From Streptomyces paludis (lineage in GTDB: Bacteria; Actinomycetota; Actinomycetes; Streptomycetales; Streptomycetaceae): a DNA stretch of 64,000 nucleotides. The stretch covers positions 6,138,001-6,202,000 of the forward strand of contig NZ_CP031194.1 of assembly GCF_003344965.1 (NCBI RefSeq). Direction: 5' to 3'. Within the stretch, counting starts at the first letter, position 1. Every line of letters begins with the position of its first letter. The translations under genes and the position numbers were made by a program. The notes beneath the pieces are model-generated. The model ran no database searches. It was not told where the DNA came from and saw only the letters and a list, made by a program, of their open reading frames with translations. Shown here piece by piece: positions 663 through 10,456 of this stretch.

Positions 663-2119
663 CTAGTACTCCAGTCTGGTTTCGCGATCTTGTGGCGTAC
701 CCGGTTGGGAACAGGTACGGCCACCGCGTGATCATCGGTTGGTGTGTGGACAAACGAAGATCGTGCGGTGGCCGCGGGCCATAGCGTAGACCCTGCCCGC
801 TGGCGGGAAATGTTCGACCGGGCCATGGCCCGGATCGCGGGCCGCTTTGGCCGAGTTGAGCCGAGGGCGAGTGCCCGCGCCTGTCTCCTCGGGCTGCTGT
901 CGCAAGCAGAGCGGAAGAACTGCTGGCAGCTGGCCGAGCAAGCCGGACACATCCGGCCGGGGCCCATGCAACGGCTGTTGCGCTACGCCCGCTGGGACGC
1001 CGATGCCGTCCGCGACGATGTCCGCACTTACGCCGTCGATCACCTCGGCAGCAACGGCGGTGTGCTGATCGTGGACGGGACCGGCTTCGTGAAGAAGGGC
1101 CGGGCTTCGGCGGGCGTCCAGCGGCAGTACACCGGCACCGCCGGGCGCATCGAGAACTCCCAGGTCGGTGTCTTCCTCGCTTACGCCACCAGCAGGGGAC
1201 GGGCATTGATCGACCGCCGGCTCTACCTGCCGGGGCAGTCCTGGTGCTCCGACCCCGAGCGCCGCCGGGCGGCCGGGATACCCGAGACGGTGCAGTTCGC
1301 GACCAAACCCCGCCCGGCCTGGGAGATGATCGCCGCCGCGCTGGACGCCGTCGTGCAGGCACCGTGGGTGACCGGTGACGAAGCCTACGGCCAGGACCCG
1401 CAGCTGCGCGCCGCCCTGGAGACACGCGGGACCGGCTACGTTCTCGCGGTCGCCTGCTCGACGCGGGTGCGGATCAACCAGGGCCGAACCCCCGTCCGCG
1501 CTGACACCGTCGCCGACCGACTGCCCGCCACCGCCTGGCAGCGGCACAGCGCAGGCCCTGGCGCGAAGGGCCCGCGCTACTACGACTGGGCCTGGATCCA
1601 CATCGGCACCGACAACCACCGCCACCTGCTCGTCCGCCGCAACCGCACCAGCGGTGAACTGGCCTTCTACCTGTGCTGGTCACCCACCTCGGTCAGCCTT
1701 GCGGAACTCGTCCGCGTCGCTGGCGTCCGCTGGAGCGTCGAGGAGTGCTTCCAGGCCGCGAAGAGCCAGGTCGGACTCGACCACTACCAGGTCAGGCACT
1801 GGACCTCATGGCACCGGCACATCACACTCGCCATGCTCGCTCTGGTCTTCCTGGCCGCCGTCGCCGCCGACGCGGCACCGAAGCGGCCCACCCATCCGCA
1901 CCGCCCAGCCCGCAGCAGCGAACCGATCCCCTTGACCGTCCCGGAGATCCGCCACCTGCTCACCACCGTCCTCGGCCCACCGGCCGTGACCGCAGCCAGG
2001 ATGCTGCACTGGTCAATCTGGCGCAGACGCCACCAGGCAACAGCCCGGCTCAGCCACTACCGACGACGAGCCGCCGACGAGACCGGCGGATAGCTCACGA
2101 AACCGCACTGGAGTACTAG
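663..2119. mobile_element. Intact IS701-family insertion sequence with CTAG target duplication
   Basis: The element occupies 667-2115. Its ends are inverted repeats: the left end reads tactccagtctggtttcg and the right end is its complement with two mismatches. The direct repeat CTAG flanks it at 663-666 and 2116-2119. IS701 elements are known to insert at and duplicate a 4-bp YTAR target, which fits. It carries one full-length transposase gene. Matched target copies and an intact frame point to a fairly recent insertion. Confidence 0.9.
744..2093 (+). CDS. IS701-family DDE transposase
   Basis: The 449-residue protein is a full-length IS701-type transposase. Landmarks are the first catalytic Asp region (VLIVDGTGFVKKG, about residue 110), the segment around VTGDEAYG (about residue 212, second Asp) and the C-terminal VRWSVEECFQAAKSQVGL, which holds the catalytic Glu. 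The start is GTG at 744, 77 bp inside the left inverted repeat. The stop lies 22 bp from the right end, so the gene fills the element. It cuts and rejoins DNA at the element ends. Confidence 0.9.
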   Translation: MWTNEDRAVAAGHSVDPARWREMFDRAMARIAGRFGRVEPRASARACLLGLLSQAERKNCWQLAEQAGHIRPGPMQRLLRYARWDADAVRDDVRTYAVDHLGSNGGVLIVDGTGFVKKGRASAGVQRQYTGTAGRIENSQVGVFLAYATSRGRALIDRRLYLPGQSWCSDPERRRAAGIPETVQFATKPRPAWEMIAAALDAVVQAPWVTGDEAYGQDPQLRAALETRGTGYVLAVACSTRVRINQGRTPVRADTVADRLPATAWQRHSAGPGAKGPRYYDWAWIHIGTDNHRHLLVRRNRTSGELAFYLCWSPTSVSLAELVRVAGVRWSVEECFQAAKSQVGLDHYQVRHWTSWHRHITLAMLALVFLAAVAADAAPKRPTHPHRPARSSEPIPLTVPEIRHLLTTVLGPPAVTAARMLHWSIWRRRHQATARLSHYRRRAADETGG

Positions 2120-2147
2120 TATCCCGAGTCTCGGAAGCGCTGCATAA

Positions 2148-2548
2148 CTAGGACTTGGGGCTCGGCAAGCGGTTGAGGTAGCCGGCGAGACGTTCGAAGA
2201 TCTCGTCGGCGGACTTGGTCCAGGTGAACGGCTTGGGGTCTTCGTTCCAGTGGGCGATCCAGTCGCGGATGTCTTTCTCCAGCGCCTGGACGTTCTTGTG
2301 GACTCCGCGTCGTATCTGCTTGTCCGTCAGCAGGCCGAACCACCGCTCGACTTGGTTGAGCCAGGAGGAACTGGTGGGCGTGAAGTGCATGTGGAACCGC
2401 GGGTGCGCGAGCAGCCACTTCTGGATGACGGGGGTCTTGTGGGTGGCGTAGTTGTCACAGATCAGGTGGACGTCGAACTCGGCAGGCACTTCCTTGTCCA
2501 GCTTGGCGAGGAACTTCTTGAATGAGGTGATCCCCGTGGTGTGGACAC
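2148..2548 (-). pseudogene. IS630-family transposase, C-terminal fragment
   Basis: Read leftward, the frame contains HLICDNYATHK, HFTPTSSSWLNQVERWF and a C-terminal HWNEDPKPFTWTKSADEI. These are characteristic of the catalytic C-terminal half of IS630/Tc1-like transposases, including the second Asp of the DDE triad (CDN) and the Glu of NQVERWF. The N-terminal half is missing: upstream of about 2548 the frame loses similarity. It cannot encode an active enzyme. Confidence 0.8.
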
Positions 2549-2714
2549 ACCTGACAATGGATCTTGTTGATCCTGGAAGGTGTAGATCTCTGTGGCACGG
2601 CCCTCGAAGTACAGTGCGGAGTTCCGGTCCGACGCGATCGCGTTGTGGCAGGCTTCGGCCGGAAGGCGGACGTGAAGTTCCCCCCCCCCCCCCCGCGAAG
2701 TGGACAGCGGGTGT
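2549..2714. other. Unassigned junction between two IS fragments, with a 15-base C run
   Basis: This stretch separates the IS630 and IS3 fragments. It holds no frame I can assign. On the plus strand there is an unbroken run of 15 C residues at 2680-2694. It probably consists of mobile-element ends joined by successive insertions or deletions. Confidence 0.4.
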
Positions 2715-2972
2715 TTACGCTGCCGGGACGAGGTTCTGCCTGAGCAAGGATCTCGTTTCGAGGGGAGTGACGTACCCGTAGTCGGGGTGCCGACGGAGCT
2801 GGCTGCGGTTGTACTCGACCTCGACGTAGCGGAAAACGTCGGCCCGGGCGGCCTCGCGGGTCTCCCGCATGATCGTCCCGATCTCCGCTTTCAGGATGGC
2901 GAACCAGCTTTCCGCGGCGGCATTATCGTAACAAGAGCCGACGCGCCCCATCGACTGCCTCATGCGCAACTT
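2715..2972 (-). pseudogene. IS3-family transposase (OrfB), C-terminal fragment
   Basis: The leftward frame reads RQSMGRVGSCYDNAAAES, then GTIMRETREAARADVFRYVE, and ends with the usual RHPDYGYVTPLE. This is the C-terminal third of the IS3 OrfB integrase domain: the CYDNAAAE segment carries the catalytic Asp and Glu region. The first two thirds are absent, since similarity stops at about 2972. It is a dead fragment trapped between other IS debris. Confidence 0.85.
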
Positions 2973-3031
2973 ACTTATTTCGCTGCGGAATTCGTCACTC
3001 GTGTACTGATTCTCCTTGTCCGGCCCCTCGC

Positions 3032-3447
3032 CTACGGGGTCGCTTTGTCTCTTTGCCGCAGCCCCTTTTCCTCCCCCACGGCCTTCTCCAGATCCTCAAG
3101 GAGTTCCGGGTCGACCACCATGCCCGCCGCGTGGTGATGCGCGCGGGCGACGGTCGAGTCCACGCTGACCAGGCTGAGGTCGACGTCATCGCGGGCCGCC
3201 GCCTCGGCGATCATCGCGTCCATGAGGACCTGGAAGACCCCGTCACGCGCCCACATCCGGAACCGGTCGTAGATCGTCGACCAGGAGCCGTAGCTCTCCG
3301 GCACATCCCGCCAGGGACAGCCGGTACGGAACCGCCACATCACCGCGTTGAAGTAGCTGCGCAGGTCAGGGATCGGCCCAAACGCGCCCAGCGGCAGGTG
3401 CGGCTCGATCAATCCCACTCGGCATCAGTCAGATCACCACGAGTCAC
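3032..3447 (-). pseudogene. IS5-family transposase OrfA, with OrfB lost
   Basis: Starting at GTG 3447 (VTRGDLTDAEWGLIEPHLP) the frame gives a typical IS5/IS427-group first ORF. It has the DUF4096-like region (YFNAVMWRFRTGCPWRDVPE) and the segment DLSLVSVDSTVARAHHHAAG containing the first catalytic Asp. In this group a second frame completes the enzyme after a programmed shift. Here the second frame runs only a few tens of residues before the junction with the IS3 fragment at about 2990. The transposase is incomplete. Confidence 0.8.
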
Positions 3448-3895: not shown

Positions 3896-5371
3896 TCACG
3901 GGCCGGGCCGGGACGTGCGCGTGTGGCGGAACGCGGCTGACCGCCAAGCGGGGATCAGCTCATGAGACTCGCTCATGGGATCGGGGTGGTGCATCTCCCG
4001 ATGGTGGACCTCGTCCTCCCGTTCCCCGTAGAGCATCGTGATGTTGACTCTGAGGTTCTCGTAGCCGGGGCGGAACGAGACTCCCGCGCTCGCGTGAAAG
4101 AGGTCAGAGTTGAAAATCACCGCACGGTTGGCCCGGTACGGAATGTTCATGGCGCGCGAGTGCTGTCGCTGGAGGAAGGGCTTGATGACGTCTGTGCGTC
4201 CGTTGTATGTGTCGAAGTCCCAGCTGAGCGGGGCATCGACGTCGTAGACCACCAGTCCGCCGGACTCAGGATCGAGATTGGCCTCGTCGGGAGTGATCCA
4301 GAAGTTGACGTTGACTGCCGCGAAGTCGGCATGGGTGGTCGCGTCCGCAGGCAGCTCGGGCCCGCACTTGAAACCCCACAGCTGCCGCAGCGGGTAGCGG
4401 TAGCCGATCATCCGCGGCAGCGCCTCCCGCAGCTCCTCGCCGATCTGCAGCAGTAGCGGGCAGTTGAACCCATCCTGGAAGAAGGCTCCAAGCCGGCCAT
4501 GGGCGTACCGGCTGCCGGACCAGATCGTCGACTCCAGACAGAACTTCCGAAGCCCGTCCAATGCGGCCGGGGAGAGGAAGTTGTCGACGTAGACGACGCC
4601 GGGCGGTGTGTCCAGGTACATGCGCTCGACGGCATCCCGGTCCCACTTGTCTGAGAGTGCCCGCGTGACACGGGGAGTCTCGCGGGTGTGCAAAAGCCGG
4701 TTGTACGCGTGGCCGATGGCGCGGCTTTCGTTGCTGTCCAGCTCCTGCCGAGCTTCGGGGCCACGCGGCATCAGACGGTCGATCAAATCCTCGTACGCAT
4801 CGATCACGGGTTCAATCTCTGTCCCCAGCACGCCCTGGCGCCGCAGGTACCTGAACTGATCGGCATCGTGGCGCAGTTTGGGAATACTGGGTGGGTACGA
4901 CGGCGACGGGTCCACGTGCCCAGGCGGGTTGAGGCCCTCGCCCCAGCGAAGTCGTGCAGTCATCGCGGCGTACTGGCCCGCCAGCGTCAGGTCGCGCGCC
5001 TTGAGCGCATTGTTCACCAAGCCCTGGATCCAAGCGAGGCCGTCGTCGCCTTGGTTCAGCTCAGCTCTGAAGAGCGGCAACGCCTCTTCGTCACGGCCCA
5101 GTCGGAGCAGCAGCTTTGCCAGATTACGGCGGGCCAGGCGAAGCTCCTTGTCCCGGCTAAGGGCTTGGCGGTACAGGGACTCAGCGGACGTCAGGTCGCC
5201 GAGTCGCTGTCGTGTCCACCCCAAGTTGTTGTAAGCCATGGCGCACTCGGGATCGAGCGTGATCGCCTGGCTGAAGCATTGCTCGGCGTCGGTGAACTGC
5301 CCCGCTCGGGAAAGCCGATGACCAAATTCGAGCAGTCGTGAGGTACCGAGCGGCGTGGGCTTCACGTTCAC
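3896..5371 (-). CDS. TPR protein fused to a 2-oxoglutarate/Fe(II) dioxygenase
   Basis: The 491-residue protein has two parts. The first 130 or so residues hold at least two TPR units ([38 protein letters not shown]), a peptide-binding scaffold. The C-terminal half is a prolyl-hydroxylase-like double-stranded beta helix. The iron ligands are visible as H347 and D349 (THADF) and H426 (SDLFHAS), with a 2-oxoglutarate-binding Arg near residue 440 ([10 protein letters not shown]). The start is GTG 5371, which overlaps the stop of the upstream repeat-protein gene (GTGA), so the two are translationally coupled. The open frame extends upstream, but only as a shadow of that gene. By family it should hydroxylate a protein or peptide; the coupled repeat protein is the obvious candidate substrate (inference). 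Confidence 0.85.
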
Positions 5372-6396
5372 TGGTGTCGTCCCAGGGCGCCGGCCTCTTG
5401 AAGGCTGGTGGCGTATTGCGCGATGGCGTCGAGGGTCACCATCACGTAGCTGGGACCGAACTGGCCGAACCGCTCGCCAGTGCCAGCGTGACCTGTGCCT
5501 GGATCGGTATGCGTAAAAGGACTCCGGGTAAACGGGTCTGTGCCCGTCCCAGTACCGGTTCCCGTTTGGGTGATGAACGTGCTCCAAGTGATAGCGGTCA
5601 GCGTGCCTGTGCCGGTTCCACCGTCTCCCGTCCCGGTTCCAGTACCCGTCCCGGTTCCACCGTCTCCCGTCCCGGTTCCAGTACCCGTCCCGGTTCCACC
5701 GTCTCCCGTCCCGGTTCCAGTACCCGTCCCGGTTCCACCGTCTCCCGTCCCGGTTCCAGTACCCGTCCCGGTTCCACCGTCTCCCGTCCCGGTTCCAGTA
5801 CCCGTCCCGGTTCCACCGTCTCCCGTCCCGGTTCCAGTACCCGTCCCGGTTCCACCGTCTCCCGTCCCGGTTCCAGTACCCGTCCCGGTTCCACCGTCTC
5901 CCGTGCCAGCCGTGACGGTTCCCGTGCCGTCGCTCGTGCCGGTGAGCATGATGTCGCCCGCGCCGATGTCACCAAGTGCCCCGAGGTTGAAGATGAAGTG
6001 CATAAGGTCTTCATCGAGTACGGCGACACTTCGCTCCGGAGCCGAAGCCCGGACGAGTGCGAGCACCACGTCCTTCCCACCGTACTTGACGACTGCGTCC
6101 GAGAATTCCTTGACGAACTCCTCCCCTGATGGCACATCACCGCTCTGTCTCAGGGCATACCCGTGGAGCCACGACCGTAGATCGCGATTTGCGACCACCG
6201 AGTACAGCAACTGATTGCTGACCGACGCCTGCTCAGGTTCCACTCGTGTGCCGTAGACATATTCCGAGAGGACTTCCGTCGGCCCGGTGACGAACTGCTC
6301 CCGCAGCAGAAAGTCGGTCGACATTGCCCGGAACAGTGCATCGGCTCGGCGGACAGTACCCGCGCGCCGCAGGGTCTGGGATTCGCTCCCGGTCAT
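5368..6396 (-). CDS. Protein with 13-residue Gly/Thr/Asp tandem repeats, possible modified precursor
   Basis: The 342-residue protein has a non-repetitive helical N-terminal region of about 140 residues. It contains [17 protein letters not shown] followed by [12 protein letters not shown], loosely like leader regions of large RiPP precursors. A central tract follows in which [13 protein letters not shown] is repeated about seven times (eight GDGG motifs). The tail of about 90 residues starts with [20 protein letters not shown]. The start ATG 6396 has a good GGAGG site 8 bases upstream. The stop overlaps the GTG of the oxygenase gene. There is no signal peptide or transmembrane segment. The repeat could be a flexible linker, an extended scaffold or a multi-core substrate. 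The opposite strand of the repeat is also open (Pro/Val), but has no support of its own. Confidence 0.8.
5612..5905. repeat. 39-bp tandem repeat, about seven copies
   Basis: A 39-bp unit beginning ggttccaccgtctcccgtcc is repeated head to tail, nearly perfectly, about 7 times plus a partial copy. It encodes the 13-residue repeat of the minus-strand gene. The unit length is a multiple of three, so copy-number changes would preserve the frame. The near identity of units points to recent expansion or ongoing homogenisation. Confidence 0.9.
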
Positions 6397-6399
6397 CCG

Positions 6400-6410
6400 T
6401 ATACCTCCAG
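6400..6410 (-). promoter_or_regulatory. Ribosome-binding site of the repeat-protein gene
   Basis: Read on the minus strand, the sequence tctggaggtatacggATG places GGAGG 8 bases before the ATG at 6396. This fixes the start of the repeat protein. No gene precedes it within 160 bp, so it could be transcribed from its own promoter in 6397-6559 or together with the propeller gene. Confidence 0.6.
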
Positions 6411-6559
6411 AGACGTTAAGGCGTACGGTAACCGTTTGACGACTCTCTGTATGTACTCCGTTACGGGGATCCCGGTGCGAGAGACGGTCCCGCTGCCTCC
6501 GGCCGGCCAGGTGCTGGACGAACGTCAGTCAGCGGACTCTGACAGTTCTGGAACGCTGG

Positions 6560-8182
6560 TCATGGTTTCTGCGGACGCGGGTGGAGGGCGTACACGTGTC
6601 CGTCGGCCGAGGATACGATTACGCAGTCGCCGGTCAGAGCGGTCGCGCCCGACATGACCGCGCCGCCGGTGCGGAACAGGCCAATGGGGCGACCAGTTGG
6701 TGAGATGAACCGCACGGAACCGTCGCTGCAGCCCACCGCGATCGTCCCGTCCGCGAGCCGGCTGATCGCCCCGCGCGCCCACGGTCCGACGGGGGCCACC
6801 CAGGCCAGACGTCCGGATCGGCGCTCTACCGCGAAGAGGTGCCCGTCCCCGGCGACGTAGACGTTGCCGTCGGCGACCAGAGGCGCGGTGTAAAGGCACC
6901 GTCCGAGCCTGCGCCGCCATCGGATGGCGCCATCTGCCACGTCCAGGGTTGTGAGAACACCGTCGAAGTCGGCGCAGTAGCAGGTGCCCGTGTCGTCGAC
7001 AACGAGGTCGGCCTTGACCGGCGCGTCGAGCGCCCGACGCCAGTAGGGCTGTTGCTCGTCGCCCATGGGGAAGGCAGTGACTGTCCCGGAATTGTCTGAG
7101 GCCAGGACGGCCTTGGTGGTGACCACCGCAGGCCGGGCGTGGGCGTACCCGGAGAGGGGCCGGCGCCACGACACGGTGCCGTCGGAGGAACATACGCGCA
7201 GCAGGGCACCCGCGTGGGGCATCTGTGTAACGGGGACGACGATGTGTCCGGTCCCGTCGTCCGCCAGGCCCGCGCCGATGCGCTCAGCGCACAGGGTCGC
7301 CCATCGTAGACGCCCGGTGCTGCGTTCGACGCAGCGCAGCACGCCGTCGTCGCTGCCGATGACGATGCCGTGCGGGGTGAACAGAGGTGTGCAGTGTGTG
7401 GGCGAAGGCGCGTCCGGGTCGCCGAGCGGCACCCGCCAGCGGAGGCATCCGGAGAGATCGACGGCGTGCAGCTGCCCCCGGTTCGATCCGAAGATGACGA
7501 GGTCCCCGTCACGCGCCGGGCGCGAGAACGGGACATCGTCGCCGCCGTTGACGCCCCCGAGCCGCCATCGCACCTGCGGGGCGGCGACCTCTTCCCCGCT
7601 CTCCGCGATCCCCAGCTCGCTGAGCGTGAACAGGTACCGCCGTGGCACGTCGTCGTGAGCACGATCGTCCCGGGCGATGCTGTCGAACCTGACCAGCGTG
7701 ACGACGACGACGGGCCGCAGGCCATGCTGCGAGACGGTCTCGACGACCCAGCCCGCGGTGGCCCCGCTGCTTTCGAGGTCGTCCACGACGGCGACGGCGG
7801 ATCCGGGAGGCGGCAGGGGACCTTCCAGCTGTCTGCGTCTGCCGTACGCCTTCGGGCGCTCACGCACGAGGATCCCGTCGAGGAGGTCCCCACGCCGTGT
7901 CGACTCCAGCACGAGCGCCCCCACCAACGGCGCTCCGGACATGCCTGTACCGACGACTGCCTGCGGGCGGAACGGGGCCAGTAGTTCGTACAGCAGTCGG
8001 CTCACGGCGGGCAGCAGATCGGCTGCCAAAGCGACCTCACGGCAGTCGAGGATCCAGCCGAAGAGCCGTCCGTCCGTCCGCCACCCCTCGCCGGGATGGA
8101 AAGCGCGGTTGATCAGGGCGGCACGGACCGCGCTCAGGTCCTGCTCGGCCTGGCGGAGGCGCGGCGCGGTGTTGTCCGTGCT
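6560..8182 (-). CDS. Phosphoribosyltransferase fused to a PQQ-type beta-propeller
   Basis: Starting at GTG 8182 the protein has 540 residues. The N-terminal 200 form a type I phosphoribosyltransferase. The PRPP-binding signature is VAVVDDLESSGAT, and the flanking elements AVVGTGMSGAPLVGA and an RERPKAYG loop resemble orotate PRTases. The rest is a run of propeller blades (FGSNRGQLHAVDLSG; GSDDGVLRCVERSTG; ASDNSGTVTAFPMG; AGDGHLFAVERRSGRLAW) of the PQQ/quinoprotein-like type. There is no signal peptide, so it is cytoplasmic. PRTase domains fused to repeat sensors are known from conflict and stress-response operons; the substrate here cannot be told. The start overlaps the stop of the short upstream frame (GTGA). 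The 163-bp gap to the repeat-protein gene leaves co-transcription open. Confidence 0.85.
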   Translation of the reverse strand, partial: STDNTAPRLRQAEQDLSAVRAALINRAFHPGEGWRTDGRLFGWILDCREVALAADLLPAVSRLLYELLAPFRPQAVVGTGMSGAPLVGALVLESTRRGDLLDGILVRERPKAYGRRRQLEGPLPPPGSAVAVVDDLESSGATAGWVVETVSQHGLRPVVVVTLVRFDSIARDDRAHDDVPRRYLFTLSELGIAESGEEVAAPQVRWRLGGVNGGDDVPFSRPARDGDLVIFGSNRGQLHAVDLSGCLRWRVPLGDPDAPSPTHCTPLFTPHGIVIGSDDGVLRCVERSTGRLRWATLCAERIGAGLADDGTGHIVVPVTQMPHAGALLRVCSSDGTVSWRRPLSGYAHARPAVVTTKAVLASDNSGTVTAFPMGDEQQPYWRRALDAPVKADLVVDDTGTCYCADFDGVLTTLDVADGAIRWRRRLGRCLYTAPLVADGNVYVAGDGHLFAVERRSGRLAWVAPVGPWARGAISRLADGTIAVGCSDGSVRFISPTGRPIGLFRTGGAVMSGATALTGDCVIVSSADGHVYALHPRPQKP

Positions 8183-8442
8183 CACTGGCGGTGTACCAGA
8201 TGCTTGCGGAAGGCATGGGGCCACCACACCGGATCCTGCCCGGCTCCGTCCGGAACACCTGTGGTCAAGCCGACGGTCCGTGTAGCGAGTTGCGGGAAGT
8301 GCCGGTCGCCCTCCCGGGCACAGAACAGGAAGGTGATGTTGATCCGGCGGTTCGTGCCGCCGGAAGCGCAACCCGCCGGATCACATCCGTTTAGCAGAGG
8401 ACTGCTTGACGCGAGGGTCAGGTCATGACGATGGCATCCCAT
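8182..8442 (-). CDS. Short coupled ORF, probably the tail of a truncated gene
   Basis: An 86-residue frame ends with TGA overlapping the GTG of the PRTase-propeller gene. The C-terminal 55 residues (RRINITFLFCAREGDRHF, then GQDPVWWPHAFRKHLVHR) look like real protein sequence. The first 25 or so are less convincing. The region just upstream is IS debris (ISL3 fragment). I infer the C-terminal end of a larger gene cut off by rearrangement. No family recognised. Confidence 0.5.
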   Translation of the reverse strand: MGCHRHDLTLASSSPLLNGCDPAGCASGGTNRRINITFLFCAREGDRHFPQLATRTVGLTTGVPDGAGQDPVWWPHAFRKHLVHRQ

Positions 8443-8689
8443 GGCATTTTCCCCTCACGGATGTAACTCGTTTCCCTGGCGGAGAGGCCCGCCGGGCTCG
8501 CCAGAGGCATTGGGTGTGCGATGCGATGCGAGATGGCTCTCGTCCAGTAGAACTCTCGGAGGAGCCCGACGCATCTTGGCCGGTCGTAGCGCAGCCGGAG
8601 CAGGACTGCGGAGGGATCCACGTTGAGGGCTCCCGTCAGGCCACCAGGGCGTCCGCGTCCGTGAGCTGCGGTGCCGGCGTTTGAGTGCG

Positions 8690-9219
8690 AAGTCGTCGAC
8701 GCCGAGTACGCGTGGGACGCGCAGCGGTGTCACCACCTGGCGCATGAGCATGCGCAGCGCGGTCGAGCGGGAGATCGCGCAGGCCAGAACGCGGCTGAGG
8801 CGGGCGCCCGCCCGGCCCGCTAACTCCTTGACCACGGAGTTCAGTTGGTTGGTCAGGCGGTTGGTGCGGCGCTGGTAGCGCTCCACGATGCCGGGAACCT
8901 GCTCGCGGAACGTCTGCCGCGGGCAGTCGAGAACCGGGCACACCAGGCGGCGGACCCGCACCGAGACGACGATCCGCCGTCCGTCCACCGGCACGTCCGC
9001 GAGCACCCGCCCATGAAATCCGTGCACCCGCGCTGTTCGAGTCCCGCACGCGGGGCACGGCACCGGATCGTCCCGGGTCCGCGCCGAAACCCGGATGACC
9101 TCGCCCTCGCCCGCCACCCCCTCGATGACCAGGGCCGACAACCCTGAAAACACCACCGCCACAAGCTCATTGACATCGCGCACACCATGCCAACGACAAC
9201 CCTCACCCTTCGTTACCAC
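8690..9219 (-). pseudogene. ISL3-family transposase, N-terminal part
   Basis: From ATG 9219 the frame gives the ISL3 N-terminal zinc-binding region (CPACGTRTARVHGFHGR, then LVCPVLDCPRQTFREQVPG), the helical linker, and the start of the DDE domain (LGVDDFALKR). Similarity stops there, at about 8690. The downstream frame is unrelated, so the catalytic core is lost. It marks the right edge of the IS-rich zone and the likely break that truncated the cassette. Confidence 0.85.
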
Positions 9220-9565
9220 CGATTACGGGCCAGAGCCTGATTCATGACACTCCCCACGGCCGCCGACACCGGGTTCCCCGCGCGGGGCGAAAGGGGTTTC
9301 TGAGCTGCGTGGTGCTGGGATAGAGCCCCTGTGCTGGGATGGTGCTGGCAGATCTGCCCCCTCGTCACCTGTCATCACCCATGCTCACCCCTACCGTGCT
9401 GGGATGCCGTTAACGCTTCCGTGCTGGTTCGCAGGCCGAACTCCGAAGAGGAGGAAGAGGGCGCCGCCGAGTGGCCTTCACATCATTTTCACGGCTCCGA
9501 AGGCCCAGGCGGAAACAAATCCGCACCTGCCCGGCGTTGTTGATCTCCGGATCGAGGAGGGGGAG
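9220..9565. other. Intergenic region with GTGCTGGGAT repeats
   Basis: No gene is evident before the GTG at 9566. The notable content is the motif GTGCTGGGAT at 9312-9321, 9331-9340 and 9396-9405, with the shorter GTGCTGG at 9342 and 9421. All copies have the same orientation and irregular spacing. They could be operator half-sites or iteron-like repeats. A long frame from 9404 reads through this stretch but lacks a ribosome-binding site. Confidence 0.5.
9312..9430 (+). repeat. Short direct repeats GTGCTGGGAT
   Basis: Three exact 10-bp copies and two 7-bp partial copies occur within 119 bp just upstream of the DUF5655 gene. The spacings (19, 65 and 25 bp between starts) are not uniform, so classical plasmid iterons are uncertain. 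A repressor site array for the adjacent gene is an alternative. Confidence 0.5.
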
Positions 9566-10456
9566 GTGTCGGGTCTGAAGTTGTTCCATACGACGAAAAG
9601 CGGTGTGACCGAGGTTCTGCCGCGTCTTGCTGAGGTTGAGGCGGATGTGCAGGGCCTTGTTGAGGCGCACATGGAGACGCTGCTGGGCGTCCGATTTCTG
9701 GCGAGTGAGTACGGCACGGGGCCGGTGCATGGGGGCCGGATCGATTCGCTCGGACTGGACGAGAATGGATCGCCGGTCATCGTCGAGTACAAGCGTGGTG
9801 TTGACGCCGGGGTCATCAATCAGGGCCTGTTCTACCTGGCGTGGTTGATGGACCATCGCGCCGAGTTCGAGCACCTGGTCCGAGACCGGCTCGGGGTGAC
9901 GGCCGTGTCTCAGGTCCTGTGGAGTGGCCCGCGTCTGATCTGCATCGCCGGCGACTTCACCCACTACGACGTGCATGCCGTGCGTGAGCACCGGCGGTCG
10001 ATCGATCTGGTTCGCTACCGGCTCTTCGGCAGCGACCTGCTCGGTCTGGAGACTGTGGCCTCCGTGAGCGGTGGCACGCAGGTGGCCTGCCGGACGCGCC
10101 GCAAGGTGGTTGCCCCGGAGGCGGCCGACGTTCAGGTCGTGGCGATGATGGAGTTGGCGGGGGCGGTTGACGAGGTTTTGCTCGGGCTCGGGGATGGTGT
10201 GAACCGGGTGGAGCGCAAGACCTACCGGGCGTATCAGCGGTTGCGGAACTTCGCGTGTCTGTGTCCGCCTCAGCGGAGCAAGCTGCTGGTCTATCTGAAG
10301 GTTGACCCGAAGGACGTTGACCTTGTTCCGGGTTTCACCCGGGATGTGTCCGGTCTTGGGCACCACGGGACGGGGGATTTGGAGGTGCGGCTCCGTACGC
10401 CGAGGGATGTGGAGCGGGCGCGGGATTTGTTCCGGGCGAGCTACGCGGCGGCGTGA
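9566..10456 (+). CDS. DUF5655-domain protein with a PD-(D/E)XK nuclease-like N-terminus
   Basis: The 296-residue protein starts at GTG 9566 behind a strong gaggaggggg site; the longer frame from 9404 is not needed. The N-terminal part has the layout of a restriction-type nuclease fold: GRIDSLGLDENGSPVIVEYK gives the D...E-x-K residues, followed by GVINQGLFYLAWL. The C-terminal 90 residues (LRNFACLCPPQRSKLLVYLK ... RDVSGLGHHGTGDLEVRLRT) match the DUF5655 type. The family is often found near restriction or mobile genes and probably acts on nucleic acid. A fragment of a second copy lies at 540-662. It converges with the leftward DUF317 gene. Confidence 0.85.
   Translation: MSGLKLFHTTKSGVTEVLPRLAEVEADVQGLVEAHMETLLGVRFLASEYGTGPVHGGRIDSLGLDENGSPVIVEYKRGVDAGVINQGLFYLAWLMDHRAEFEHLVRDRLGVTAVSQVLWSGPRLICIAGDFTHYDVHAVREHRRSIDLVRYRLFGSDLLGLETVASVSGGTQVACRTRRKVVAPEAADVQVVAMMELAGAVDEVLLGLGDGVNRVERKTYRAYQRLRNFACLCPPQRSKLLVYLKVDPKDVDLVPGFTRDVSGLGHHGTGDLEVRLRTPRDVERARDLFRASYAAA

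Follow-up and report, generated by a model that had tools for sequence, protein, structure and literature searches.

A conserved gene pair for a threonine/glycine-rich repeat protein and an Fe(II)/2-oxoglutarate oxygenase in Streptomyces paludis, a candidate RiPP-like modification cassette

We analyzed a stretch of 64,000 nucleotides (the window) spanning positions 6138001-6202000 of the single-contig, 8.45-Mb genome of Streptomyces paludis, in which a gene for a Thr/Gly-rich repeat protein (5368..6396, minus strand; window coordinates here and below) is followed by one for a protein that joins tetratricopeptide repeats (TPRs) to an Fe(II)/2-oxoglutarate (2OG) oxygenase (3896..5371, minus strand). 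These two genes form a conserved pair, present in all 21 related loci that we recovered, and as a gene organization this two-gene core is well supported. With moderate confidence, we read the pair as the core of a modification cassette resembling those of ribosomally synthesized and post-translationally modified peptides (RiPPs), in which the TPR oxygenase would hydroxylate the disordered core of the repeat protein, probably at Thr.

RESULTS

The repeat gene and the oxygenase gene occur together

Inspection of the open reading frames (ORFs) in the window confirmed three consecutive ORFs on the minus strand, and the features that a first-pass annotation had reported there (three leftward genes, an identical repeat array, the residues H347, D349, and H426, and an overlap of the oxygenase start with the stop of the repeat gene) are all present. 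The oxygenase gene begins with a GTG that shares 4 bp (GTGA) with the end of the repeat gene, whose stop codon is TGA; such an overlap occurs at 11 of 22 loci. Another in-frame GTG follows 6 bases into the oxygenase gene and leaves the exact start uncertain.

Scanning 84,980 species genomes with a profile of the conserved N-terminal domain of the repeat protein (the N-domain; pattern LLREQF[VI]T[DG]) yielded 21 loci: six in Streptomyces, one each in Nonomuraea, Geodermatophilaceae, and Methylocapsa, and twelve in Duganella, Massilia, and other Burkholderiales. Every one of them has the oxygenase on the same strand, either immediately beside the repeat gene or separated from it by a single gene, for a radical S-adenosylmethionine (SAM) enzyme. 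Because loci found with the N-domain alone all have the oxygenase, the two proteins constitute a conserved pair, and the shared neighborhood in other genomes for which the first-pass annotation had proposed a search does exist for the repeat and TPR-2OG genes.

Genomes were also queried from the oxygenase side, in evenly drawn samples in which a catalytic domain was counted at 45% identity or more. The oxygenase is matched in 39 of 295 Streptomyces genomes, in 35 of them only at residues 2-165, and all four with the catalytic domain have the repeat gene, as do the four with the catalytic domain among 296 genomes of the class. Eleven of 294 Burkholderiaceae match the oxygenase, and all eight at 46-51% identity have the pair; three others (G471, G512, and G593; 38-40% identity) show no N-domain match within small flanks. 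Save for the window's own genome and G709, the sampled genomes with the pair belong to species that the 21 loci already represent. The samples thus show an absence of exceptions and hardly any new cases, which lowers our confidence in the preferred reading slightly. There is one oxygenase match per genome in each of 16 genomes searched.

Architecture of the repeat protein

The 342-amino-acid repeat protein, as delineated from its ORF, its homologues, and an AlphaFold model, consists of a helical N-domain, a Thr/Gly-rich middle, and a C-terminal helix. The model, built from a later start and covering 318 of the 342 residues, predicts confident helices for the N-domain (pLDDT mostly at least 90 in the first 90 modeled residues) and a C-terminal helix at residues 290-310 (block pLDDT of 94), separated by a middle with pLDDT below 60 that is predicted to be disordered. 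The N-domain (5971..6372, minus strand) carries an LLREQFVT.P motif and is leader-like by alignment, by predicted structure, and by weak TIGR04509 matches; the 22-residue C-terminal helix (5383..5448, minus strand) is conserved among aligned C-termini. The alignments behind these statements comprise 27 of 30 trimmed N-domains plus that of the window (alignment A1, whose pattern missed four further proteins) and 40 hand-chosen sequences of 62 repeat proteins (A3).

Within the middle, a 39-bp unit encoding 13 residues is repeated in tandem 7.5 times with 100% matching (5612..5904, minus strand), which is not explicable by chance. Since the copies are identical in DNA, the array points to a recent expansion and does not by itself demonstrate a function. 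It is also only part of the longer Thr/Gly-rich segment, and after it comes a non-repeated core motif of 31 residues (5512..5604, minus strand) of the form TLTAITWxTYIT...TPFT...TRSPFT, which recurs in Nonomuraea and Duganella; this pattern, composed by hand after inspection of the sequences, is found in 16 of 83 sequences, including the window protein.

Searching with the N-domain returned 62 proteins, including that of the window, all of them lacking precomputed Pfam domains. On visual inspection, most have a low-complexity middle, whose units vary (GTEMSTG, GTDTGTD, NIDPTTPGT, TTQTTDTGP, and TGGPP) and whose repeat number differs widely among relatives. Composition is more constant: in 49 non-redundant homologues, drawn from 60 with a sufficiently long middle, the middles contain 27.1% Thr and 23.2% Gly, versus 3.6% and 6.1% in the N-domains, and the Gly-Thr dipeptide is 2.1 times commoner in the middles than in shuffled versions of them. 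The window protein itself has no Pfam family, only weak NCBIfam matches (E of 0.018 or worse), and no signal peptide visible by eye. The 13-residue units that the first-pass annotation had singled out are thus present in the window but are not the conserved element, loci L002 and L005 being almost without repeats; what the relatives retain is a mostly Thr-rich middle, bounded by the N-domain and the C-terminal helix.

Selection on Gly-Thr units

Selection on the repeats was assessed in six Duganella-type loci, all of one lineage. Counting by hand in steps of four from GTGPGT (and leaving out L003, likewise a radical SAM locus but without such a period), we found Gly-Thr kept in 132 of 132 four-residue GTxx units, with synonymous changes in both the Gly and the Thr codons, while positions 3 and 4 change residue. 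Gly-Thr is thus constant despite synonymous codon changes, indicating that in these six relatives the protein sequence is selected, and DNA slippage is insufficient as a full explanation of the repeats. The window repeats, being identical in DNA, are uninformative on this point.

The oxygenase

The 491-amino-acid oxygenase, defined by Pfam, alignment, predicted structure, and Foldseek, has an HxD...H...R site in which we take H347, D349, and H426 to be the Fe ligands and R441 presumably to be the 2OG-binding Arg. All four residues are invariant in the 40 members of a hand-chosen alignment (A2; 32 of 120 listed oxygenases plus 8 from the loci), and across 22 loci D349, H426, and R441 are present in all and H347 in 21. 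Pfam searches at E 0.1 detect TPR-type families only, with no match to PF05118 (Asp_Arg_Hydrox), and the TPR part is short or absent in several oxygenases of the related loci. A scan for known defense systems with PADLOC turned up nothing beyond a generic match to TPRs (E of 8.1e-5).

The predicted structure (pLDDT of 88) shows TPR helices and an oxygenase barrel. When it was compared with the PDB by Foldseek, the top ten rows were the oxygenase and TPR regions of human AspH (E of 2.5e-7 to 1.9e-6) and the next two were P3H1; other rows are small-molecule enzymes (SnoK, HalB, KanJ, and BesD). AspH and P3H1 are protein hydroxylases that act on whole proteins, and TPR domains commonly bind peptides. 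The BesD and HalB rows could suggest a halogenase, a reading that we rejected because D349 is present: halogenases are known to lack the Asp of the Fe triad.

A wider search with the oxygenase returned 3915 proteins at E 1e-3, some of which may share only TPRs; the matches include oxygenases of Paraburkholderia, Caballeronia, and Cupriavidus DF5525. Two Burkholderiaceae loci, L069 and L070, encode TPR-2OG proteins at a greater distance (38-40% identity); the one in L069 lies beside ORFs that by eye resemble a CRP-type regulator and a C39 peptidase; these proteins perhaps serve another substrate system.

Recurring partner genes

Within flanking stretches of at most 10 kb, only two further families are present in at least four loci and cross lineages: an FkbM methyltransferase, whose gene immediately follows that of the oxygenase in 15 of 21 loci, and a radical SAM enzyme, encoded between the repeat gene and the oxygenase in 7 of 21. 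Membership was assigned by Pfam in two loci for each family and by BLAST clustering in the others; PF05050 (FkbM) was found in both loci tested, and the radical SAM protein of L012 falls below the Pfam cut-off. The best NCBIfam model for the radical SAM partner is YydG, at 41.7-62.8 bits in four proteins versus a cut-off of 300 bits. FkbM, radical SAM enzyme, and oxygenase occur all together in 6 of 21 loci. Neither partner lies beside the pair in the window, nor in L002, L004, L005, L008, and L013, all Actinobacteria, and L012 lacks FkbM only; a sequence in L004 that fits a loosely defined radical SAM pattern does not belong to the partner family. Such recurring neighbors fit a modification pathway, and we infer that they modify the precursor.

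The richest enzyme set that we found is that of L071, on Cupriavidus oxalaticus plasmid NZ_CP038639.1 (7186-12028). There, the gene for a GTEMSPG repeat protein is followed by those for the oxygenase, FkbM, a protein that Pfam does not match, another 2OG-Fe(II) oxygenase, and an aldo/keto reductase.

The N-domain and its radical SAM-only relatives

Two weak N-domain matches in Streptomyces are each followed directly by a partner-type radical SAM gene. Conversely, this radical SAM enzyme is present in 3 of 246 Streptomyces genomes, in all three of which an N-domain-like protein is encoded directly before it (L078, 8770-10538; L079, 8731-10501; and L083, 876-2574). Against a database of three sequences, the N-domain profile scores the precursors of these relatives at E of 9e-15, 1e-13, and 3e-7; the third, given for the N-domain of L084, did not reach 1e-5 in a wider six-frame profile search. 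Their middles are hydrophobic and rich in Val, Ile, Leu, and Ala, and in the 16-18 kb around the three radical SAM genes there is no oxygenase or FkbM of the families associated with the pair. These radical SAM-only relatives are probably a sister system.

The leader-like character that the first-pass annotation had ascribed to the N-terminus is weakly supported by matches to RiPP leader models, all below threshold. TIGR04509 (NHLP-related RiPP) matches the N-domain in 7 of 28 members, with a best E of 0.0061, and these seven members are related to each other, so that their matches are not independent. Among the radical SAM-only relatives, TIGR04509 matches L079 at E 0.0012 (18.8 of 34 bits in one such relative), and an Os1348 NHLP model matches L083 at E 0.054. 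Pfam assigns no family to the N-domain proteins and gives scattered, chance-level matches only.

DISCUSSION

We consider that the cassette may work like a RiPP pathway, with a precursor gene clustered with its modifying enzymes. In such a pathway, the folded N-domain, perhaps together with the C-terminal helix, would dock the enzymes as a leader would, and the TPR superhelix would feed the disordered middle into the oxygenase, which would hydroxylate many equivalent sites, the Thr of Gly-Thr units most likely and Asp or Asn next. FkbM, where present, would then methylate the modified chain, and the radical SAM enzyme would extend the chemistry in other genomes; in the window, hydroxylation alone would be expected because neither an FkbM nor a radical SAM gene adjoins the pair.

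Several observations weigh against this reading. The first concern the leader: no recognized leader family was reached at its curated cut-off in Pfam or NCBIfam, the radical SAM-only precursor of L078 has no leader-model match at all, and HHalign of 12 TIGR04509 proteins versus alignment A1 pairs 29 columns only (P of 0.0061; probability of 6%), a segment that hints at a shared recognition motif without proving common descent. Others concern the core: the near absence of repeats in L002 and L005, the Ser/Ala-rich middle of P0025, and the occurrence of repeats on both sides of the N-domain in P0037, P0038, P0041, P0042, and P0043, an arrangement that a simple leader-core succession leaves unexplained. 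The precursor of the Cupriavidus plasmid (L071) has repeats and no N-domain match, so such a succession does not hold everywhere. Selection is not visible in the window array, where the codons differ at only 11 of the 99 repeat positions that were matched. On the enzyme side, superposition on AspH is poor (TM of about 0.25; root mean square deviation of about 15), single domains matching and not the whole, and L010, from Pseudoduganella danionis, has H347N, the only exception among the 22 loci, such that its oxygenase may be inactive. Finally, RiPP pathways usually have a protease or transporter gene, and neither is among the families that at least four loci share across lineages within flanking stretches of at most 10 kb; leader removal and export could fall to general enzymes of the host.

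Beyond the pair itself, we tentatively suggest, at less than even odds, a RiPP-like class with an internal core, in which the N-domain and the C-terminal helix would hold out an exchangeable disordered loop and the enzymes would vary with the chemical nature of the loop: a TPR-2OG hydroxylase, often joined by FkbM, for Thr/Gly repeats, and a lone YydG-like radical SAM enzyme for Val/Ile/Leu/Ala stretches. The Thr/Gly type would yield a ribosomally templated Thr-Gly polymer, hydroxylated at many sites and in some cases methylated, of a previously undescribed kind.

Should the hydroxylation reading be correct, Actinobacteria and Proteobacteria would share a protein-hydroxylation system whose substrate is encoded in the next gene, which would make the substrate choice of a TPR-2OG enzyme directly testable. 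Relatives that differ naturally in the number and motif of their repeats form a ready series for the study of processive hydroxylation, and the shared N-domain provides a handle for finding more such enzymes.

Comparison with described systems

The first-pass annotation knew of no described system with the three parts that it had joined, and we found no description of the gene pair in the literature searched, among the matches listed, with many subscription papers outside that search. The nearest described enzyme set is that of pythonamide, a proteusin RiPP that is reported to be modified by the 2OG oxygenase EreI, the FkbM methyltransferase EreM, and the radical SAM epimerase EreD; its core has a four-fold GGP(T/S) motif, and five of the six methylations by EreM need co-expression of EreI (PMC9505594, PMC11285071). 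Enzymes of these three kinds surround one precursor in 6 of the 21 loci described here (for the radical SAM partner, the designation of epimerase depends on a weak match). The loci differ from the pythonamide pathway in that we saw no B12 methyltransferase, the window oxygenase has a TPR domain, and the precursor is far longer, with an internal core, a conserved helix after the core, and leader models below cut-off. Because no NHLP or Nif11 leader model reaches its cut-off, the cassette cannot be filed as a proteusin.

Other resemblances are more partial. Human AspH and P3H1, the first twelve PDB rows, share the TPR plus 2OG-oxygenase architecture of the window protein; AspH differs in the absence of an Asp_Arg_Hydrox match (E 0.1) and the poor superposition, as well as in its ligands, since AspH is known to lack the Asp ligand of the HxD...H triad seen here. 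The YydG/YydF epipeptide system is resembled in the best model of the radical SAM partner and in the hydrophobic middles of the radical SAM-only relatives, but the scores are far below the 300-bit cut-off, and the precursors are about 190-230 amino acids long with an N-domain that, to our knowledge, is not found in YydF. GRRM-type systems place a modification enzyme beside a Gly-rich repeat protein, whereas the constant partner here is a 2OG oxygenase, and no GRRM model is among the NCBIfam matches listed (the best 25 in several lists).

Alternative explanations

The alternative that survives best, though we regard it as unlikely, is that the modified repeat protein stays whole, as hydroxylated collagen does, its hydroxylated Thr/Gly segment forming a polymer, flexible or fibrous, within the cell or beyond it, with no peptide cut out. 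A structural role of this sort would suit the internal position of the core between N-domain and C-terminal helix, the highly variable repeat number, the lack of a protease or transporter among the families shared by at least four loci, and the action of AspH and P3H1, the nearest folds, on whole proteins. It accords less well with the absence of a signal peptide (by eye) and with the N-domain-like proteins with hydrophobic middles that precede YydG-like radical SAM enzymes, an arrangement resembling peptide maturation.

Considerably less probable is that the oxygenase acts on a free amino acid, a small molecule, or another protein, with the repeat protein as scaffold, chaperone, or regulator. 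The 21-of-21 pairing, the single copy per genome, and the start/stop coupling argue against this, as does the retention of Gly-Thr with synonymous drift, which is expected of repeated substrate sites, and the common binding of peptides by TPR domains; the small-molecule enzymes among the Foldseek rows speak for it, together with a distant relative in a peptide-transport operon (Aminobacter, 33% identity), the relatives G471, G512, and G593 away from any N-domain match, and the oxygenases whose TPR part is reduced.

Still more doubtful is the idea that the repeats are functionless slippage products of GC-rich DNA and that only the N-domain and oxygenase matter. The DNA-identical copies in the window look as they would after recent slippage, and units differ widely between relatives or, in L002 and L005, are nearly missing; however, slippage does not account for the exclusively synonymous changes seen at Gly-Thr across 132 of 132 units (six relatives, one lineage), the Thr/Gly enrichment across 49 proteins, or the TLTAITW...PFT motif common to Streptomyces, Nonomuraea, and Duganella.

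The neighboring phosphoribosyltransferase-propeller gene and the genomic setting

Upstream of the repeat gene by 163 bp, and on the same strand, lies the third ORF (6560..8185, minus strand, from GTG 8185, or 8371..6560 from the first possible start), which encodes a fusion of a phosphoribosyltransferase (PRTase) and a PQQ propeller. The propeller passes its Pfam cut-off (PQQ_2; 88.7 bits versus 27.6), and the PRTase part matches pyrE below the cut-off (41.4 bits versus 106.8). The first-pass annotation had united all three genes in one system. Both PRTase and propeller are absent from 21 of 21 related loci at E 1e-3, and a search at E 1e-30 finds the fusion in a single one of 199 Streptomyces genomes, that of the window; on these grounds we rejected it as a partner of the pair, and by its distribution it is a bystander and a rare fusion outside the conserved cassette. 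That it adds or senses a nucleotide-type group on hydroxylated repeats is scarcely credible, its proximity and shared strand being set against its absence from all related loci and from 198 of the 199 Streptomyces genomes and against a neighborhood rich in insertion sequences (ISs).

IS genes flank the three ORFs, with transposase domains at 744-2093 and 8455-9219, which suggests a recent arrival or remodeling of the cassette. The regions 744-3418 and 8455-9219 contain a DDE_5 transposase, an ISL3-type zinc ribbon, and further transposase-like ORFs judged by eye. Beyond them, at 9404-10456, is a gene whose product, possibly a nuclease, carries DUF5655 (27.3 of 24 bits) and weakly matches the NucS C terminus (19.8 of 24 bits).

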